From: Acetobacter ghanensis
Lineage (GTDB): Bacteria > Pseudomonadota > Alphaproteobacteria > Acetobacterales > Acetobacteraceae
Length of the DNA: 64,000 bases
Direction of reading: 5' to 3'
Assembly: GCF_001499675.1 (NCBI RefSeq)
Contig: NZ_LN609303.1
Coordinates: forward strand, 1-64,000
Position 1 is the stretch's first letter. Each line of letters begins with the position of its first letter. Shown piece by piece: positions 13,511-45,354 of the stretch. The translations under genes were made by a program, and so were the position numbers. The notes beneath the pieces are model-generated. The model was not told where the DNA came from. It saw nothing but the letters and a program-made list of their open reading frames with translations, and ran no database searches.

Positions 13511-14128
13511 TCAGGCGGCGAGATCCCGCGGCGACGCGCGCAGGGCGTCCTGTGCGACACGCCGCGGATGATGGCCCTCGGCGTAAGCCGCACGCAGTCC
13601 CGCAACAGTGGCAATATCAAGGAGCGTATAGGTGGACTGGCTCAGGCGCTGCACCCGCGCATTGGTCGCGCGCAACCAGCCATAGAAGCCGACATGGCCA
13701 GCGGCCGGGGCCGTGAACTCATCCGGGGTTTCGTCGGGCCAGATCGGTGCACACTCAGCAAACTGGAACGGGGTATTCGGCCCACCCCACATCCGCACCC
13801 CGTCATCATCGGGCATCGGCACAGGACTTTTGAAAATCTCGTGCACCCACGCATTCGTACCCAAAGACCCATCGCGATACGCCGCCTCAAAACCTGCGGG
13901 TCGGCGCTGCCCACGCGGCACCAAAATTATGATCATGAAACTTTCACGCGGACGGTCTGCAGCGACACGCTCCCCATACTGGCCGACGGCGTTACGGATC
14001 TGATCCAGACGGTGGCGACAATTTCCTGTAGCCGGATAAAAGTTTCCAAGCAGTTCCATGCTTGTGGACGTTCCCAGATCATCATGCTGACGGGTTGCGC
14101 GGTTTGCACTAAGTTTGAGGCGGGCCAT
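13511..14128 (-). CDS. Hypothetical protein, 205 aa
   Basis: Start ATG at 14128 (MARLKLSANRATRQHDDLG) with AAAAGGAAGCC upstream. Sequence features include an Arg-rich N-terminus, FMIIILVPRGQRRPAGFEAAYRDGS, and a repeated Ala-rich C-terminal segment with RRVAQDALR. No domain was recognised. It is preceded by a 59-bp perfect-arm inverted repeat (14172-14230) and followed by a terminator-like hairpin, so it appears to be a single transcription unit. Confidence 0.6.
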   Translation of the reverse strand: MARLKLSANRATRQHDDLGTSTSMELLGNFYPATGNCRHRLDQIRNAVGQYGERVAADRPRESFMIIILVPRGQRRPAGFEAAYRDGSLGTNAWVHEIFKSPVPMPDDDGVRMWGGPNTPFQFAECAPIWPDETPDEFTAPAAGHVGFYGWLRATNARVQRLSQSTYTLLDIATVAGLRAAYAEGHHPRRVAQDALRASPRDLAA

Positions 14129-14171
14129 GATGGCTTCCTTTTCATGATTGGGTTTCAACCCTTGCGCGTTC

Positions 14172-14230
14172 GCCACGTCTGGGAGGCCGGGGCCAGAGCT
14201 TGTCTCTGGTGGCGGCCTCCCAGACGTGGC
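14172..14230 (-). promoter_or_regulatory. Perfect 17-bp-arm inverted repeat (element D)
   Basis: GCCACGTCTGGGAGGCC (14172-14188) is exactly complementary to 14214-14230, and an inner CCAGAG/CTCTGG stem (14193-14198/14204-14209) tops the hairpin. It sits 44 bp upstream of the gene starting at 14128, with no T-tract on either side. Confidence 0.65.
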
Positions 14231-14360
14231 AGCGGGTTTTACTGTTGTGGTTTGGTGTTCTTCTTTGTGTGTGGCGCTCTCTGCGCGCAGCCCACCGAAA
14301 GACCTCGGGAGTCAGTGCGTGGCTGTGTCCATTTTGGCGCACGCACTGGCGCGGCCTCGC

Positions 14361-39519: not shown

Positions 39520-40419
39520 TTAAGTTACCAAAGAAGGTAAAGCAGCAAATTCGATAAAGTCCTGCAGATATCGGACCTCTTCATCGGTTTCGCGGCAACC
39601 AAGAAATATCTGCTTTGCAATGCCCTTTTTACCAAGCTTCACCGGGTAAAGGTTAAAGCGTGGGGCATACTCTTCCACAAGCCAGCGTGGAAGTGCTGCA
39701 ACGCCCCTTCCATGCGCCACCATCACCAGCATGATATCCGTGGTTTCAATCTGCTTCTGCTGTCGTGGGCCAATACCAGCAGGCTGCAGAAACTGCGTAT
39801 AGATATCCAGCCGCTCGGACGGGACAGGGTAGGTGATCAATGTTTCGCCAGCAAGCTGTTCTGGCAAGACGAACTTCTCATTCCGAAGAGGATGTTCAGG
39901 GCCAATGGCCAGAACGAGTTCATAATCGAAGACCGGCGTGAATTTCAGGCCGGGTTTGTAAAGCGGATCAGGGGTGACTACGATGTCAATCTCATTGCTG
40001 AACAACGCGCCAATACCGCCAAACTGGAACTTCTGCCTTACATCCACGTCAACTTTGGGCCATCGCTCCAGATACGGGGAGACGACTTTCAGAAGCCACT
40101 GATAGCAGGGATGACACTCCATGCCGATGCGGAGTGTACCACGTCCTCCATTTGCGAACTGTTCAAGGCGGCTTTCCGCCAGCTCAAATTGAGGAAGCAG
40201 GCGGTTCGCCAAAGCAAGCAGCCATTCGCCTGCCTGATTGAGCACAAGGGAGCGTCCCTCCCGCCTCCATATCTTTACGCCAAGCTGCTGTTCTATCTTG
40301 CGGATCGCGTGACTGAGCGCCGGCTGGGTCAGGTTCAGACGCATCCCTGCAGCCGTCAAAGAGCCTTCTCGCGCGACTTCCCGAATAATTGTCAGATGAC
40401 TGCGCTCCAGAACACCCAT
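39520..40419 (-). CDS. LysR-family regulator (MetR-like), 299 aa
   Basis: HTH at the N-terminus (EGSLTAAGMRLNLTQPALSHAIRKIEQQLGVKIWRREGRSL) with a LysR effector domain of the type found in MetR, the homocysteine-responsive regulator of metE. It sits downstream of and in the same direction as the mesD-mesX genes, so it probably regulates methionine synthesis. It ends about 95 bp from direct repeat copy 1. Confidence 0.85.
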   Translation of the reverse strand: MGVLERSHLTIIREVAREGSLTAAGMRLNLTQPALSHAIRKIEQQLGVKIWRREGRSLVLNQAGEWLLALANRLLPQFELAESRLEQFANGGRGTLRIGMECHPCYQWLLKVVSPYLERWPKVDVDVRQKFQFGGIGALFSNEIDIVVTPDPLYKPGLKFTPVFDYELVLAIGPEHPLRNEKFVLPEQLAGETLITYPVPSERLDIYTQFLQPAGIGPRQQKQIETTDIMLVMVAHGRGVAALPRWLVEEYAPRFNLYPVKLGKKGIAKQIFLGCRETDEEVRYLQDFIEFAALPSLVT

Positions 40420-40736: not shown

Positions 40737-41765
40737 TCAGGCCGAAAGTTCTCTGCGAACGATTTTCGTGCCTGCGCCCAGAGCATTCAACTTGCCTCGC
40801 GCCACGTCACGCGGCAAAGGGGCCATGCCGCAATTGGTGCAGGGATAAAGCTTGTCGGCATCCACAAATTGAAGGGCTTTTCGTAGCGTATTTGCGACTT
40901 CGTCTGGAGTTTCAATGGCATTGGTTGCCACATCAATGGCGCCGACCATCACCTTTTTCCCACGAATGAGTTCGATCAGATCCATCGGAACACGGGAATT
41001 CTGACATTCCAGCGAGATCAGATCGATATTGGATTTCTGAAGCTTGGGGAAAATCTCTTCATACTGCCGCCACTCTTCTCCAAGAGCATTTTTCCAGTCG
41101 ATATTGGCTTTGATACCATAACCATAGCAGATATGGACGGCGGTTTCGCATTTCAGTCCTTCAATAGCCCGCTCCAAAGTGGCGATGCCCCAGTCATTCA
41201 CCTCATCAAAGAAAACATTGAAGGCAGGTTCATCGAACTGGATGATATCGACGCCAGCGGCTTCCAGTTCCCTCGCTTCCTGATTGAGGATTTTGGCGAA
41301 TTCCCACGCCAGTTTTTCACGACTTTTGTAGTGGTCATCGTAAAGCGTATCGATCATGGTCATGGGACCAGGCAACGCCCATTTGATGGGTTTCTTTGTC
41401 AGCGTGCGCAAAAATTTCGCACCCTCGACAAAGACGGGCTTCTCGCGTGCCACGGCACCGACAACGGACGGCACACTGGCATCGTAACGGTTGCGAATTT
41501 TAACCGTCTGACGGTCTTCAAAGTCGACGCCGCTGAGATGCTCGATAAACGTCGTGACGAAATGCTGACGCGTCTGTTCGCCATCGCTGACGATATCAAT
41601 GCCAGCCCGGTCCTGATCGTCCAGGGTCAGGCGCAACGCATCCTGTTTACCTTCGACAAGTTCCTCATCCTGCAATTTCCAGGGCGACCAGAGAGTCTCG
41701 GGTTTTGCGAGCCAGGACGGCTTGGGCAGGCTGCCAGCTGTCGAGGTAGGAAGCAGTTTGTTCAT
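40737..41765 (-). CDS. mesD: Folate-independent methionine synthase core, MesD
   Basis: 342 aa, corresponding to the catalytic (C-terminal) half of MetE without its folate-binding N-terminal half. Zinc ligands are visible: His211 and Cys213 (AVHICYGYG), Glu253 (SLECQNSR) and Cys312 (YPCTNCGM). From Price et al. (folate-independent methionine synthases) this family is MesD, which needs MesX and, as I recall, oxygen. It transfers a methyl group, donor not known to me, to homocysteine. MesX is encoded immediately upstream (28 bp). Confidence 0.85.
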   Translation of the reverse strand: MNKLLPTSTAGSLPKPSWLAKPETLWSPWKLQDEELVEGKQDALRLTLDDQDRAGIDIVSDGEQTRQHFVTTFIEHLSGVDFEDRQTVKIRNRYDASVPSVVGAVAREKPVFVEGAKFLRTLTKKPIKWALPGPMTMIDTLYDDHYKSREKLAWEFAKILNQEARELEAAGVDIIQFDEPAFNVFFDEVNDWGIATLERAIEGLKCETAVHICYGYGIKANIDWKNALGEEWRQYEEIFPKLQKSNIDLISLECQNSRVPMDLIELIRGKKVMVGAIDVATNAIETPDEVANTLRKALQFVDADKLYPCTNCGMAPLPRDVARGKLNALGAGTKIVRRELSA

Positions 41766-41792: not shown

Positions 41793-42791
41793 TCAGGCGG
41801 CGTAGATGGCAGACCACTGTTCCAGAAAATCATGATACGGTTCGATAAAATTCTCTTCCGTATATTTACCCTGTGCGGTTGCTAACTGGCTCCGCTCTTC
41901 GCGGTCGTAGACAATGCGGGTGTTTGAATAATCCTGATGTTGCAGGCTTGGCTTGTAACAGGCGGGGGCCGCAGCATTGGCATTGTAGATTTCAGGGCGG
42001 TAGACCTTCTGAAAAGACTCCATCACACTGATGGTGCTGATAAGCTCAAGAGTCGAATAGTCAGAGAGCAGGTCACCAAAAAAATAGAACGCCAATGGCG
42101 CTGCGCTATTGTGGGGCATGAAATAGCGGACCTGCATTCCCATTTTATTAAAATACTGATCTGTCAGAGAAAATTCACGCTGCTGGTATTCAACCCCCAG
42201 AACAGGATGCTGATTTTCGGTCCGATAATAGGTTCGGTTGGTTGAAACGCTGAGGCATATAAGGGGAAGCTTCCTGAAATTCTTTCTATAAGCGGTGGAA
42301 TTCACAACGCTCTTAAAAAGATTTCCGTGCAGATCTCCGTAATTTTGAGGAACGGTGAACTCTACCTTGTTTTTATTGTAGCCGGGCAGCAGCACACTGA
42401 AATCATAATCCCGTACATATGAGGAAAAACTGTTTCCTGCGAGACCTTCTATGCGCCTGTTGGCCTTTTTATCGACAATCGTTGTGTAAAGAACTTCGAT
42501 CAGCGGAAAGCTGTCGTTCTTGCCGGCAAAGGCGAGGTCCATCTCAATGGAAACGATTTCAAGCTCGACGGAGTAGCGATCCCCCATGGGGTTGTCCCAA
42601 TGCGCCAGGCCATTGAAACGATTGTCAATCATCCTGAGCACGTTGCGCAGGTTTTCCTGACGGCTTTCGCCTCTTGCCAGATTGGCGAAATTGGTCGTGA
42701 GACGCGTTCTGTCGGATGGATGATAATTCTCATCGAAGCGAATGCGCTTTATTTCAAATGCTGTTTCCCTGATCATTGAAGCCTTCATCAT
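41793..42791 (-). CDS. mesX: MesX (DUF1852), auxiliary protein of MesD
   Basis: 332 aa, starting MMKASMIRETAFEIKRIRFDENYHPS, with the conserved TTNFANLARG, NRFNGLAHWDNP and VQNYGDLHG-like regions of DUF1852. This family is the reported partner of MesD. Together they give cobalamin-independent methionine synthesis. The operon is leftward, mesX first. The leader on this strand (42792-43000) contains no recognisable riboswitch. Confidence 0.85.
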   Translation of the reverse strand: MMKASMIRETAFEIKRIRFDENYHPSDRTRLTTNFANLARGESRQENLRNVLRMIDNRFNGLAHWDNPMGDRYSVELEIVSIEMDLAFAGKNDSFPLIEVLYTTIVDKKANRRIEGLAGNSFSSYVRDYDFSVLLPGYNKNKVEFTVPQNYGDLHGNLFKSVVNSTAYRKNFRKLPLICLSVSTNRTYYRTENQHPVLGVEYQQREFSLTDQYFNKMGMQVRYFMPHNSAAPLAFYFFGDLLSDYSTLELISTISVMESFQKVYRPEIYNANAAAPACYKPSLQHQDYSNTRIVYDREERSQLATAQGKYTEENFIEPYHDFLEQWSAIYAA

Positions 42792-43030: not shown

Positions 43031-43248
43031 GAACGCTTCGATGGTCCCGCGCGAGCGGGTTAATAGGGAACACCGTCACGCACTGGGCAGATGACCGTCC
43101 AGAGGCATAGTCGGTGGCTGCTCCCGCAACTGTAGGCGGTATGCTGCTGGTTCGTTCACCCTGAACGTGGACCACTGTTCCCATAGAGGGCGGGAAGGTT
43201 GGAACCAGTCGGCCGTGATCCGTGAGCCAGGAGACCTGCCATCGTTCA
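43031..43248 (+). ncRNA. Cobalamin (B12) riboswitch
   Basis: On the plus strand the typical elements occur in order: TAATAGGGAAC, then GGCTGCTCCCGCAACTGTA, then CCACTG, then GCGGGAAGG, and the B12 box AGCCAGGAGACCTGCC at 43225-43240. P1 is formed by CGATGG (43039-43044) and CCATCG (43239-43244). Binding of cobalamin usually represses the downstream gene, here a Rieske oxygenase unit. It points away from mesX. Confidence 0.9.
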
Positions 43249-43293
43249 GCCACCAACCGTCGGGCGGGATGACCGAAGGGAGGAGAAAAGTCT

Positions 43294-43431
43294 ATGCCTG
43301 TCTGCCTCGTGCTTCCACCATTCCTACTGAATCGGTTAACCGGATCTTTTCAGGCCACAGTCCCTTGTCCCGTCATTTCTGACCGATATGCGCGACACAT
43401 GTTCGTGCTGCTGAAAGCCCCTGGCCGTTAA
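43294..43431 (+). CDS. Possible small leader ORF, 45 aa
   Basis: ATG at 43294 preceded by a strong GGGAGGAGAAAAG ribosome-binding site just after the riboswitch. It reads MPVCLVLPPFLLNR... and ends with TAA at 43429-43431. The protein has no recognised domain and is not CbtB, the B12-regulated cobalt transporter subunit. It may be a leader peptide or a small membrane-associated protein. Coding status unproven. Confidence 0.35.
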   Translation: MPVCLVLPPFLLNRLTGSFQATVPCPVISDRYARHMFVLLKAPGR

Positions 43432-43585
43432 GCACTTCGGGTCCAGGAACCGGGCAATCACGCGCCTTGTCCGGTAGTGATAACGGTTACGCTTGCTCAG
43501 ACAAAATGTGAGAGACGGGACAGCACTCCATACTAGAGCGTTACGTCCTTTCGCCCTGGTCTGAGCCGGATGAAATGCCGAGGCA

Positions 43586-44680
43586 ATGGAAAACGAATTT
43601 CGTCAAACTTCAGAACATCCCGTGTGCGCAGAACACACCGATTTAAGGCGTATCAGAACCAATCCTGACTTCTGGTATCCCGTTGCATGGTCCCGTGAAT
43701 TGAGACGGGAGAAAGCAATCGATGTCCGGTTTGCCGGACGTCATATCGTTGTTGTGCGTCCAAAGAGCGGCGAGCCTTACGCGTTGGACGGACTATGCCC
43801 TCACCGGCAAGTTCTTTTGGGCAAAGGCGACGTGCATGGTGACGCAATAAGCTGCATCGCTCATGGTCTGAGATATGACAGGGACGGCCAGTGTGTTTCG
43901 TCCGATGTCTCTGCCGAGGCACAATGTCTGCATCTCACGACGTGGGCCTGCCGGGAAAAAGGTGGGCTCATTTTTGTTTTCATGGGGGAGCAGTCTCTTG
44001 CGGACAAGATCCCGCTTCCTGACTTTCCAAGAGTAAAGGACAGGCGTTACCGCACGCGCCGCTTTGGTCAGGTCGTGAACTGTCATTACAGTTTCATGCA
44101 TGAAAACCTGATGGATATGAATCATCAGGTTCTGCACAGTCGCCTTGTCGGCAAAATGAAGCCTCGATTTCTGGGAATGGATCACGGTGATGGTTTTGTC
44201 GAGGCTCGCTATACGTTTGTACGAACTGGCGGCAAACAGCCTTTGAGTGAAGCTCTGATCTACGGTCAGAGACGTCGTGATGGGCGGGATTTTGCCTATC
44301 GGGACGTCATGACCATCAGGACACAATATCCCTATCAGACCCTGCGTATTGAAACGCAAGGGATTGAAGAACCCGTGATGGAGTTGTGGATTTCATATGT
44401 CCCGCAGGACCGTGACGAGTTGACCAACCGTGTCTTCGGGCTGTTATCGATCAAACGATTGAAAGTGCCTTTTTTACTGGATCTGGCGTGGCCAATACTG
44501 GTCGCGTTCACGGAGCGCGTTTTCTTTGAAGATCGTGAGATCGTCGAGCTGGAACAGGCTGCATGGAAAGATCTCGGTGGCGACCATAATCAGGAAGTCT
44601 TTCCGGTTATCAATCAACTTCGTGATCTGCTCAGACGATGCGGTCAGAGACCGGATGGCGTGGGAAAGGCTGCGTCATGA
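43586..44680 (+). CDS. Rieske [2Fe-2S] non-haem iron oxygenase, 364 aa
   Basis: Rieske ligands CPH (71-73) and CIAH (90-93) bind the [2Fe-2S] cluster. The catalytic iron site is in the HENLMDMNHQVLH region (His180, His184). It resembles the VanA/DdmC-type O-demethylases and related aromatic oxygenases. It follows the B12 riboswitch by ~340 bp, so it is probably expressed when cobalamin is scarce. It is coupled to the next gene by ATGA. Being an oxygenase, it may supply a methyl or carbon substrate to MesD, but this is speculation. Confidence 0.88.
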   Translation: MENEFRQTSEHPVCAEHTDLRRIRTNPDFWYPVAWSRELRREKAIDVRFAGRHIVVVRPKSGEPYALDGLCPHRQVLLGKGDVHGDAISCIAHGLRYDRDGQCVSSDVSAEAQCLHLTTWACREKGGLIFVFMGEQSLADKIPLPDFPRVKDRRYRTRRFGQVVNCHYSFMHENLMDMNHQVLHSRLVGKMKPRFLGMDHGDGFVEARYTFVRTGGKQPLSEALIYGQRRRDGRDFAYRDVMTIRTQYPYQTLRIETQGIEEPVMELWISYVPQDRDELTNRVFGLLSIKRLKVPFLLDLAWPILVAFTERVFFEDREIVELEQAAWKDLGGDHNQEVFPVINQLRDLLRRCGQRPDGVGKAAS

Positions 44681-45057
44681 GACCGCCGTTTATCCGTCCA
44701 CCCTCCCATGTTCTTCATCCTCTGCTTGAAAAGATTATTCTCCTCGCACCCGACCGCACCTGCGTTCTTGCTTTCCTGGGGCAGAATTACTTTTTACCCG
44801 AAGATGAACAGTTGCAGCGGAATGGGTATGAGCTGTTCCAGATGATGGTTGCCGATTTACCAACTATACATCAGGAACGCGGCAACCATCTGGAAGCGCA
44901 TTTCAGGCCACTACTGAATGCGGCCATGGAGATGGTCATGACGTTGCCCGACATGCCCGAAAACACATCCGGCACGTATTACGCGCAAGCCTATATTGCG
45001 ATTCAGAATCTGATCGGCGCGCAGAAAGCCGCAATGAGCATGTATTGTCGTGCATAG
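44677..45057 (+). CDS. Hypothetical protein, 126 aa, coupled to Rieske gene
   Basis: Start ATG at 44677 overlaps the Rieske stop (ATGA), which decides it. Alpha-helical, no recognised domain (LLEKIILLAPDRTCVLAFLGQNYF; MNAAMEMVMTLPDMPENTSG). Could be an accessory or electron-transfer-related small protein, but there are no visible metal motifs. Confidence 0.65.
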   Translation: MRPPFIRPPSHVLHPLLEKIILLAPDRTCVLAFLGQNYFLPEDEQLQRNGYELFQMMVADLPTIHQERGNHLEAHFRPLLNAAMEMVMTLPDMPENTSGTYYAQAYIAIQNLIGAQKAAMSMYCRA

Positions 45058-45075
45058 TATTGGAGGAGACGGCTC

Positions 45076-45354
45076 TTGAATAACGTCGTGAATTATCCCG
45101 TTCAAAGCGGGGCCGCCAGATCCTATCTGGCGGCAAAAAATCTTACCAAAGAGCAGTGCCGCTTTATTCTCTCCCTTCCGATAAGTGGCGAATACGGCGT
45201 GCCTGAAACGGACCGAGGCAGCATTCGCGCATCATTGATATTGATGGGATATGTGGCTGCCGGATTTTCCACGCGGTGGGGCAGTGCGGCCGCACGTCTT
45301 ACGCGTAGAGGATGCATCATGCATCGAAAGTTGATTTCAGGCGATATTTTCTGA
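45076..45354 (+). CDS. Hypothetical protein, 92 aa, TTG start
   Basis: Starts with TTG at 45076, preceded by GGAGGAGACGGCTC. The sequence includes KNLTKEQCRFILSLPISGEYG and a hydrophobic IRASLILMGYVAAGF segment. It follows the 126-aa gene by 18 bp and is probably in the same operon. Unknown family. Confidence 0.55.
   Translation: MNNVVNYPVQSGAARSYLAAKNLTKEQCRFILSLPISGEYGVPETDRGSIRASLILMGYVAAGFSTRWGSAAARLTRRGCIMHRKLISGDIF

Follow-up and report, generated by a model that had tools for sequence, protein, structure and literature searches.

A Rieske oxygenase operon behind a cobalamin riboswitch in Acetobacter ghanensis, a candidate mobile B12-sparing module

The genes controlled by cobalamin (B12) riboswitches mostly serve to make or import B12 or encode established isozymes that work without it. 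Which need does such a riboswitch serve when it stands ahead of a Rieske non-heme iron oxygenase? The question is raised by a locus of Acetobacter ghanensis, studied here in a window of 64,000 nucleotides (positions 1 to 64,000 of NZ_LN609303.1, the 161-kb contig C2 of a three-contig genome of 2.84 Mb). There, an aptamer of family RF00174 precedes the genes of a Rieske oxygenase and two small proteins, orf2 and orf3, and diverges from mesX and mesD, which encode a B12-independent methionine synthase. We propose that the Rieske operon is a horizontally mobile, B12-repressed and O2-dependent module that probably replaces a further B12-dependent function; our confidence in this proposal as a whole is evenly balanced, while a B12-sparing role in the general sense is likely.

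The riboswitch and the operon behind it

The arrangement described in the original prediction, a clear B12 riboswitch ahead of a Rieske gene and two small proteins and divergent from a B12-independent methionine synthase, was borne out. The covariance model of RF00174 aligned over its full length (1-189 of 189), and the aptamer is one of the two Rfam matches at curated cut-offs in the window. Since the riboswitch points away from mesX and mesD, which lie on the opposite strand, it can act directly on the Rieske operon only, and from this aptamer we infer B12 control of that operon.

The region 3′ of the aptamer is probably the expression platform. The pattern CCGTCGG-CGGG...CCGAAGG--GG-GA is invariant there among 11 aligned loci, and a start codon lies 35 to 38 nucleotides 3′ of the aptamer in all 11 loci looked at (here the ATG at 43294). 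A local fold of 43225-43310 was not more stable than shuffled sequences (z +1.03), and scans for promoters and terminators gave matches at chance level only. The start codon opens a short leader frame, which is probably a remnant of the MetE-N-terminal-like gene found at the same site in Komagataeibacter-type loci; leader frames of 29 to 45 codons, not all alike, occur in seven Acetobacter-type loci, with the same start spacing as in those loci, which are described below. The Rieske gene starts 328 nucleotides after the end of the riboswitch, which probably acts on the leader frame and would reach the Rieske gene by polarity or coupling.

Rieske oxygenases are recognized by a CxH...CxxH ligand motif plus a 2-His-1-carboxylate iron site. 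An alignment of 28 sequences shows no variation at the ligands C71, H73, C90 and H93, nor at H180, H184 and D316, which presumably bind the iron, and both Pfam matches of the protein scored above their cut-offs, as expected of a Rieske non-heme iron oxygenase of the VanA_C type. The predicted structure (predicted local distance difference test 82.2) found its nearest folds in the dicamba and guaiacol O-demethylases and in SxtT/GxtA. No reductase gene was found in the Rieske-orf2-orf3 operon.

Neither orf2 nor orf3 matched any family of Pfam or NCBIfam at E<=0.1, and orf2 had no fold match in the PDB at E<=0.001. A profile of orf2 matched 24 proteins, of which those with a named source came from acetic acid bacteria, and orf3 is 76-97% identical in five Acetobacter-type loci and 46-50% identical in two Komagataeibacter-type loci. 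Pairwise ratios of nonsynonymous to synonymous substitution rates were 0.08-0.14 for the Rieske gene (six relatives), 0.15-0.21 for orf2 (four), 0.14-0.25 for orf3 (five) and 0.07-0.13 for mesX (four), and purifying selection is thus observed on all four genes tested.

Table 1. Coordinates of the riboswitch, the Rieske operon and the genes discussed with them (positions of the window, unless a locus is named)
Feature	Position	Strand	Details
Cobalamin (B12) riboswitch aptamer RF00174	43025-43257	+	91.7 bits against curated cut-off 31.5, E 2e-21
Conserved stretch 3′ of aptamer, probable expression platform	43258-43293	+	ends in Shine-Dalgarno site
Short leader frame, 45 codons	43294-43431	+	site of 360-amino-acid MetE-N-terminal-like gene in Komagataeibacter-type loci
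Rieske non-heme iron oxygenase, clade C, 364 amino acids	43586-44680	+	PF00355 65 bits, VanA_C PF19112 50.4 bits
orf2, 126 amino acids, predicted all-helical	44677-45057	+	ATG overlaps Rieske stop
orf3, 92 amino acids	45076-45354	+	TTG start behind GGAGGAG
mesX, putative oxygenase partner of MesD	41793-42791	-	PF08908 581.9 bits; divergent from riboswitch
mesD, folate-independent core methionine synthase	40737-41765	-	PRK09121 694.7 bits against cut-off 392
MetR-like LysR regulator, after mesD	39520-40419	-	PF03466, PF00126
queH	L009:5676-6332		QueH Pfam 213.4 bits
queH	L011:19244-19903		QueH Pfam 216 bits
queH	L196 near 13659-14318		97% identity

In the window mesD and mesX are adjacent, which identifies a MesDX system, and the LysR gene that follows had as its top NCBIfam match PRK15421 MetR, at 206.8 bits (under the cut-off of 382). 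Elsewhere in the window there is an ALIL pseudoknot, RF01497 (34915-35031, + strand, 104.2 bits), which we take to be a frameshift element of an insertion sequence. The next stretch of contig C2 carries genes that, by eye, resemble a mutagenesis cassette of the imuA-imuB-dnaE2 type (L086:2858-8459).

A mobile, riboswitch-linked clade and its gene orders

A scan of species genomes gave at least 586 relatives of the Rieske protein, of which the 80 best were used; hereafter, L labels are loci of relatives and G labels are genomes, G000 being that of the window. Fifteen of the 80, the named loci of what we call clade C, are 71-87% identical to the window protein, and the remainder 58-63%. In a tree of 112 rows clade C comprises 17 (the 15 named loci, the window and G073) and is monophyletic in 100/100, on a long stem beside a chromosomal clade A; with the root and some long branches unsure, clade C appears derived from, or sister to, the clade A Rieske. 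The genome of the window has three copies. The clade C copy is on contig C2, and contig C1 carries copy A, which is 59% identical to C, and copy B, which is 52% identical. All 49 genus genomes searched have the family.

A same-strand cobalamin riboswitch lies upstream of the Rieske gene or of the operon leader in 14 of the 15 named loci. In the 49 genus genomes, the riboswitch matches listed cover 10 of 11 clade C loci (nine intact, one broken and one fragment), the exception being G131; five of the genus genomes with clade C are probably the same assemblies as named loci (G131 the same as L010). No riboswitch was found at the three clade A loci scanned (L019, L024 and L029), nor near the A and B paralogues of the window's own genome. 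In G146, mesX and a divergent riboswitch stand where a contig breaks off. This genome gave no clade C match and was counted as lacking the clade.

Cobalamin riboswitches were also seen in other settings. Back-to-back pairs pointing outward occur at L008:5235-5766, L010:12961-13478 and L011:13854-14468, and single ones precede an OprB-type porin, named by eye, on the chromosome of the same strain (L084:10476-11675) and an OprB porin, matched by Pfam, in Novacetimonas hansenii (L016:2064-4070).

The riboswitch bears directly on a plain alternative, in which the clade C gene is a spare copy of the chromosomal Rieske that gained its riboswitch by plasmid rearrangement and has no link to B12. Clades A and C do share the presumed catalytic residues at 59% identity, and the Rieske gene is incomplete in many plasmid records among the matches listed. 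The two clades differ: clade A is syntenic and riboswitch-free in the loci scanned, with a YLGKGKLPNG segment in its aligned rows, whereas clade C is mobile and riboswitch-linked and has no such segment. The retention of the riboswitch in all but one of the named loci, the strong purifying selection, and the occurrence of riboswitch-linked orf2 and orf3 homologues in another gene order speak against a spare copy, which we regard as improbable. The conserved neighbours of clade A, by eye a DUF815-type ATPase gene in 57 of 66 loci and a GNAT/MutT gene in 60 of 66, gave no clue to function.

Two gene orders prevail in a table of neighbours that covers 23 loci. In the Acetobacter type, metR, mesD and mesX are followed by the divergent riboswitch, Rieske gene, orf2 and orf3. 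In the Komagataeibacter type, btuB, btuF, btuC and btuD are followed by a riboswitch, a gene for the MetE-N-terminal-like protein (metEN) and the Rieske gene, and then by a riboswitch before a DUF2147 gene; L011, L013, L014 and L018 add a riboswitch with a helix-turn-helix gene and orf2, and a riboswitch with orf3, each separately switched. The genes metR and metE come next in L014, L018 and L185; they do not in L011, which has mesDX instead, nor in L013 and L016, and L012, L015 and L017 end before this position. L011 carries both blocks, the mesDX-linked one and the btu type. Homologues of all three genes are thus riboswitch-led in both arrangements, different as these are, which speaks for a functional unit.

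The MetE-N-terminal-like protein of 360 amino acids, which resembles a portion of the N-terminal half of MetE, opens the riboswitch-Rieske operon at the start codon 3′ of the aptamer in L014 (8860-9942, + strand). It is also present in L011, L012, L013, L015, L017, L018 and L185, with PF08267 as the only match above cut-off, and absent from L016; four relatives at 67-99% identity apparently belong to the same type of locus. At L009, L011 and L196, in three genera, metF and queH adjoin mesDX. According to PMC6461909, QueH can take the place of the epoxyqueuosine reductase that depends on cobamide, and QueH, MetF and MesDX appear by their sequences to form a small block of B12-independent functions.

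The btu genes suggest another role, in B12 uptake or corrinoid processing, with the Rieske enzyme oxidatively trimming imported corrinoids. The btuB-F-C-D genes lie directly upstream in the Komagataeibacter-type loci and in N. hansenii. Riboswitch-led orf2 relatives are followed at L008 by genes for a TonB receptor and a PepSY protein and at L010 by a PepSY gene, and at L007 a riboswitch-led TonB-PepSY unit adjoins the mesDX-linked copy; the fold class, moreover, includes aryl O-demethylases. With the queries used, however, no uptake genes were found beside the other mesDX-linked copies, except in L011, and to our knowledge corrinoid processing has no Rieske step. We therefore consider this role doubtful, a shade more so than the spare copy.

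The tree rows of L004, L005 and L009 are identical, although these come from three genera, and clade C was found on plasmids typed as conjugative, which indicates that clade C moves between genera. Of 398 genomes of the phylum, six have the Rieske family at E<=1e-60, and they belong to two bacterial families. Plasmid searches, which covered the best 30 of 46 and the best 30 of 208 records, gave weaker relatives on a few Streptomyces plasmids among the matches listed. In four Burkholderia-group records the relatives adjoin msrB-dipZ-msrA in two and unrelated genes in the other two.

What the oxygenase may do

The original prediction suggested that the Rieske enzyme could be a demethylase that makes or frees a one-carbon donor for MesDX. 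The two systems do co-occur at further loci of the neighbourhood survey, contrary to the complete lack of co-occurrence that the original prediction had named as a refutation. Divergent adjacency with mesX was observed in 10 of 20 clade C genomes, although two of these 10 Rieske copies are broken; the 20 are the 15 named genomes, that of the window, G123, G143, G122 and G120, with G073 (row L088) and plasmid records excluded and the five genus genomes that resemble named loci not counted twice. Of the 49 genus genomes, 31 have mesX and 10 have clade C (nine intact, one fragment), and nine genomes have both (one-sided Fisher p 0.050, or 0.079 for intact copies only, kinship uncorrected).

This overlap is outweighed by the genomes that have one system without the other. 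Clade C is lacking in 22 of the 31 mesX genomes (20, were the two partial Rieske matches left without a clade, G145:C173 and G148:C234 at 67-68%, to belong to clade C), with mesX split or carrying a stop in four of the 22, and this rules out the Rieske enzyme as an obligate part of MesDX. Clade C is found without mesX in G164 and stands elsewhere beside metE, or beside neither metE nor mesDX. The mesDX-linked copies are confined to one subclade of the tree, so the linkage probably goes back to a single joining event. MetE uses methyl-folate, and a donor role would need to serve the folate-free MesD and the folate-dependent MetE alike. According to PMC7857596, E. coli mutants in metE and metF are rescued when given both mesD and mesX, which means that the two genes suffice in E. 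coli. A donor role for MesDX is thus unlikely, and we give very little credence to the demethylase as originally drawn; the common thread appears to be shared B12 regulation. The suggestion of a B12-sparing system is likely in its wider sense, with a riboswitch in nearly all named loci and a setting among MesDX, MetE and QueH, and was not supported in its link to the feeding of MesDX.

B12 synthesis genes are common riboswitch targets, and CobG, the corrin ring-contraction oxygenase of aerobic B12 synthesis, resembles Rieske proteins in being an O2-dependent Fe-S protein. That the Rieske enzyme replaces CobG is nonetheless scarcely credible: CobG is present in the genome (TIGR02435, 249 bits against a cut-off of 234.8), beside matches to cobJ and cbiD, and the candidate was rejected.

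The proposal of a B12-sparing module requires a B12-dependent function that could be backed up. The B12 enzymes of the host available for this are MetH, at 960 bits against a cut-off of 1010.9 on a piece cut by the locus edge, and HpnR, at 896.8 bits against a cut-off of 650. HpnJ is present as well, with its B12-binding domain under cut-off. On the same chromosome, a B12-binding radical S-adenosylmethionine protein with no NCBIfam family above cut-off (L142:10023-11621) is a possible further B12-dependent function.

HpnR leads to a special case of the proposal, with the boldest of the candidate substrates, in which the Rieske enzyme desaturates or hydroxylates a ring of the membrane hopanoids and offsets the lost B12-dependent C-3 methylation. 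Unsaturated hopanoids occur in acetic acid bacteria. The top NCBIfam match of the Rieske protein is SdmA, a sterol C-4 monooxygenase, and in each of the three paralogues the Asp presumed to bind iron comes after a hydrophobic segment, but at 115 bits against a cut-off of 600 SdmA membership fails. HpnR is found in all 10 clade C genomes of the genus, which is uninformative given its presence in 44 of 49 genus genomes (p 0.30). Squalene-hopene cyclase is present in 35 of the 36 Acetobacteraceae genomes that have the Rieske family and in 70 of the remaining 84 (one-sided p 0.027, uncorrected; G019 and G109, with Rieske matches at 32% only, were placed among the latter), yet the cyclase is present in 105 of 120 family genomes regardless, and the hopanoid link by co-occurrence is weak. 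Neither the conserved genes around clade A nor the four Burkholderia-group records included a recognized hopanoid gene. PMC6460317 describes core-desaturating enzymes as not established as of 2019, and for hopanoid desaturation in a methanotroph it proposes an enzyme of the fatty-acid-hydroxylase type rather than a Rieske protein. We judge the offset of HpnR unlikely, somewhat below the corrinoid role. A broader version, in which clade C would replace a B12-dependent radical S-adenosylmethionine lipid modification by hopanoid ring oxidation or desaturation and clades A and B would be the missing hopanoid desaturases, is less likely still.

Rieske B (G000:C1:2327162) lies about 16 kb from hpnR (G000:C1:2343870), and the two are about 15-33 kb apart in many genus genomes, which is probably plain synteny.

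A B12-repressed module compared with known systems

In the mechanism that we propose, B12 would bind the aptamer when plentiful and block expression from the conserved start site that follows, and the Rieske-orf2-orf3 operon would be expressed when B12 is scarce. The Rieske enzyme would then take electrons from a reductase encoded elsewhere and perform an O2-dependent oxidation, be it hydroxylation, desaturation or demethylation. Like MesDX and QueH, and alongside them, this oxidation would offset the loss of one more function when B12 is lacking, and it would not supply MesDX. The setting is consistent with such a role, as the module sits in blocks with B12-free isozymes (MesDX or MetE, and QueH in three genomes) and/or B12 uptake genes.

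Several observations weigh against it. The Rieske gene of L010 (A. indonesiensis, probably also G131) has no riboswitch directly upstream, and a promoter within the 328-nucleotide gap could bypass the riboswitch. The host apparently makes B12 (family searches recognized CobJ, CbiD and CobG, and other cob genes were named by eye), so that a shortage must arise otherwise, for example from lack of cobalt, and no B12-dependent enzyme with a matching reaction was identified. Of 19 Acetobacteraceae plasmid records among the matches listed, 11 hold a partial Rieske gene, nine of them near-identical, and broken copies adjoin mesX in G122 (which has an intact copy elsewhere), in G120 and in record H4/H40; the module would therefore be dispensable in some strains.

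Among the open-licence literature matches listed, including searches aimed at mesX, there was no report of a Rieske oxygenase under a B12 riboswitch. The B12 riboswitch here leads an oxygenase that has yet to be characterised and two small proteins that are new, beside MesDX and sometimes QueH. The module points to a B12-dependent need of acetic acid bacteria beyond methionine and queuosine, and would help to give a function to a Rieske family that every genus genome searched carries.

Of the characterized enzymes, dicamba O-demethylase (3gke) and guaiacol O-demethylase (7qwt) resemble the Rieske protein in fold, with TM-scores of 0.72-0.74 by query length, and the best two sequence matches in the PDB are dicamba O-demethylase 3gb4 and again 7qwt; they differ in sharing only 20-22% identity with it. 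The 4beta-methylsterol monooxygenase SdmA (NF052579, 115.3 bits, E 2.8e-33) is set apart by a score far under the equivalog cut-off of 600, which ruled out family membership, and by the SdmB-like reductase that the operon does not contain. The MesD/MesX system adjoins the operon in the window, and its MesX is likewise termed a putative oxygenase by Pfam. It differs in working without the Rieske enzyme, to judge from its distribution in the genus and from PMC7857596.

The closest parallel is with the B12-independent isozymes, such as metE, that are under cobalamin riboswitch control. The content of the operon differs, in that it encodes a Rieske enzyme along with two small proteins and no matching B12 enzyme is known. 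The likeness lies in the RF00174 aptamer with the conserved start site behind it, and in the blocks around clade C, which likewise hold MetE or MesDX, and QueH in three genomes.

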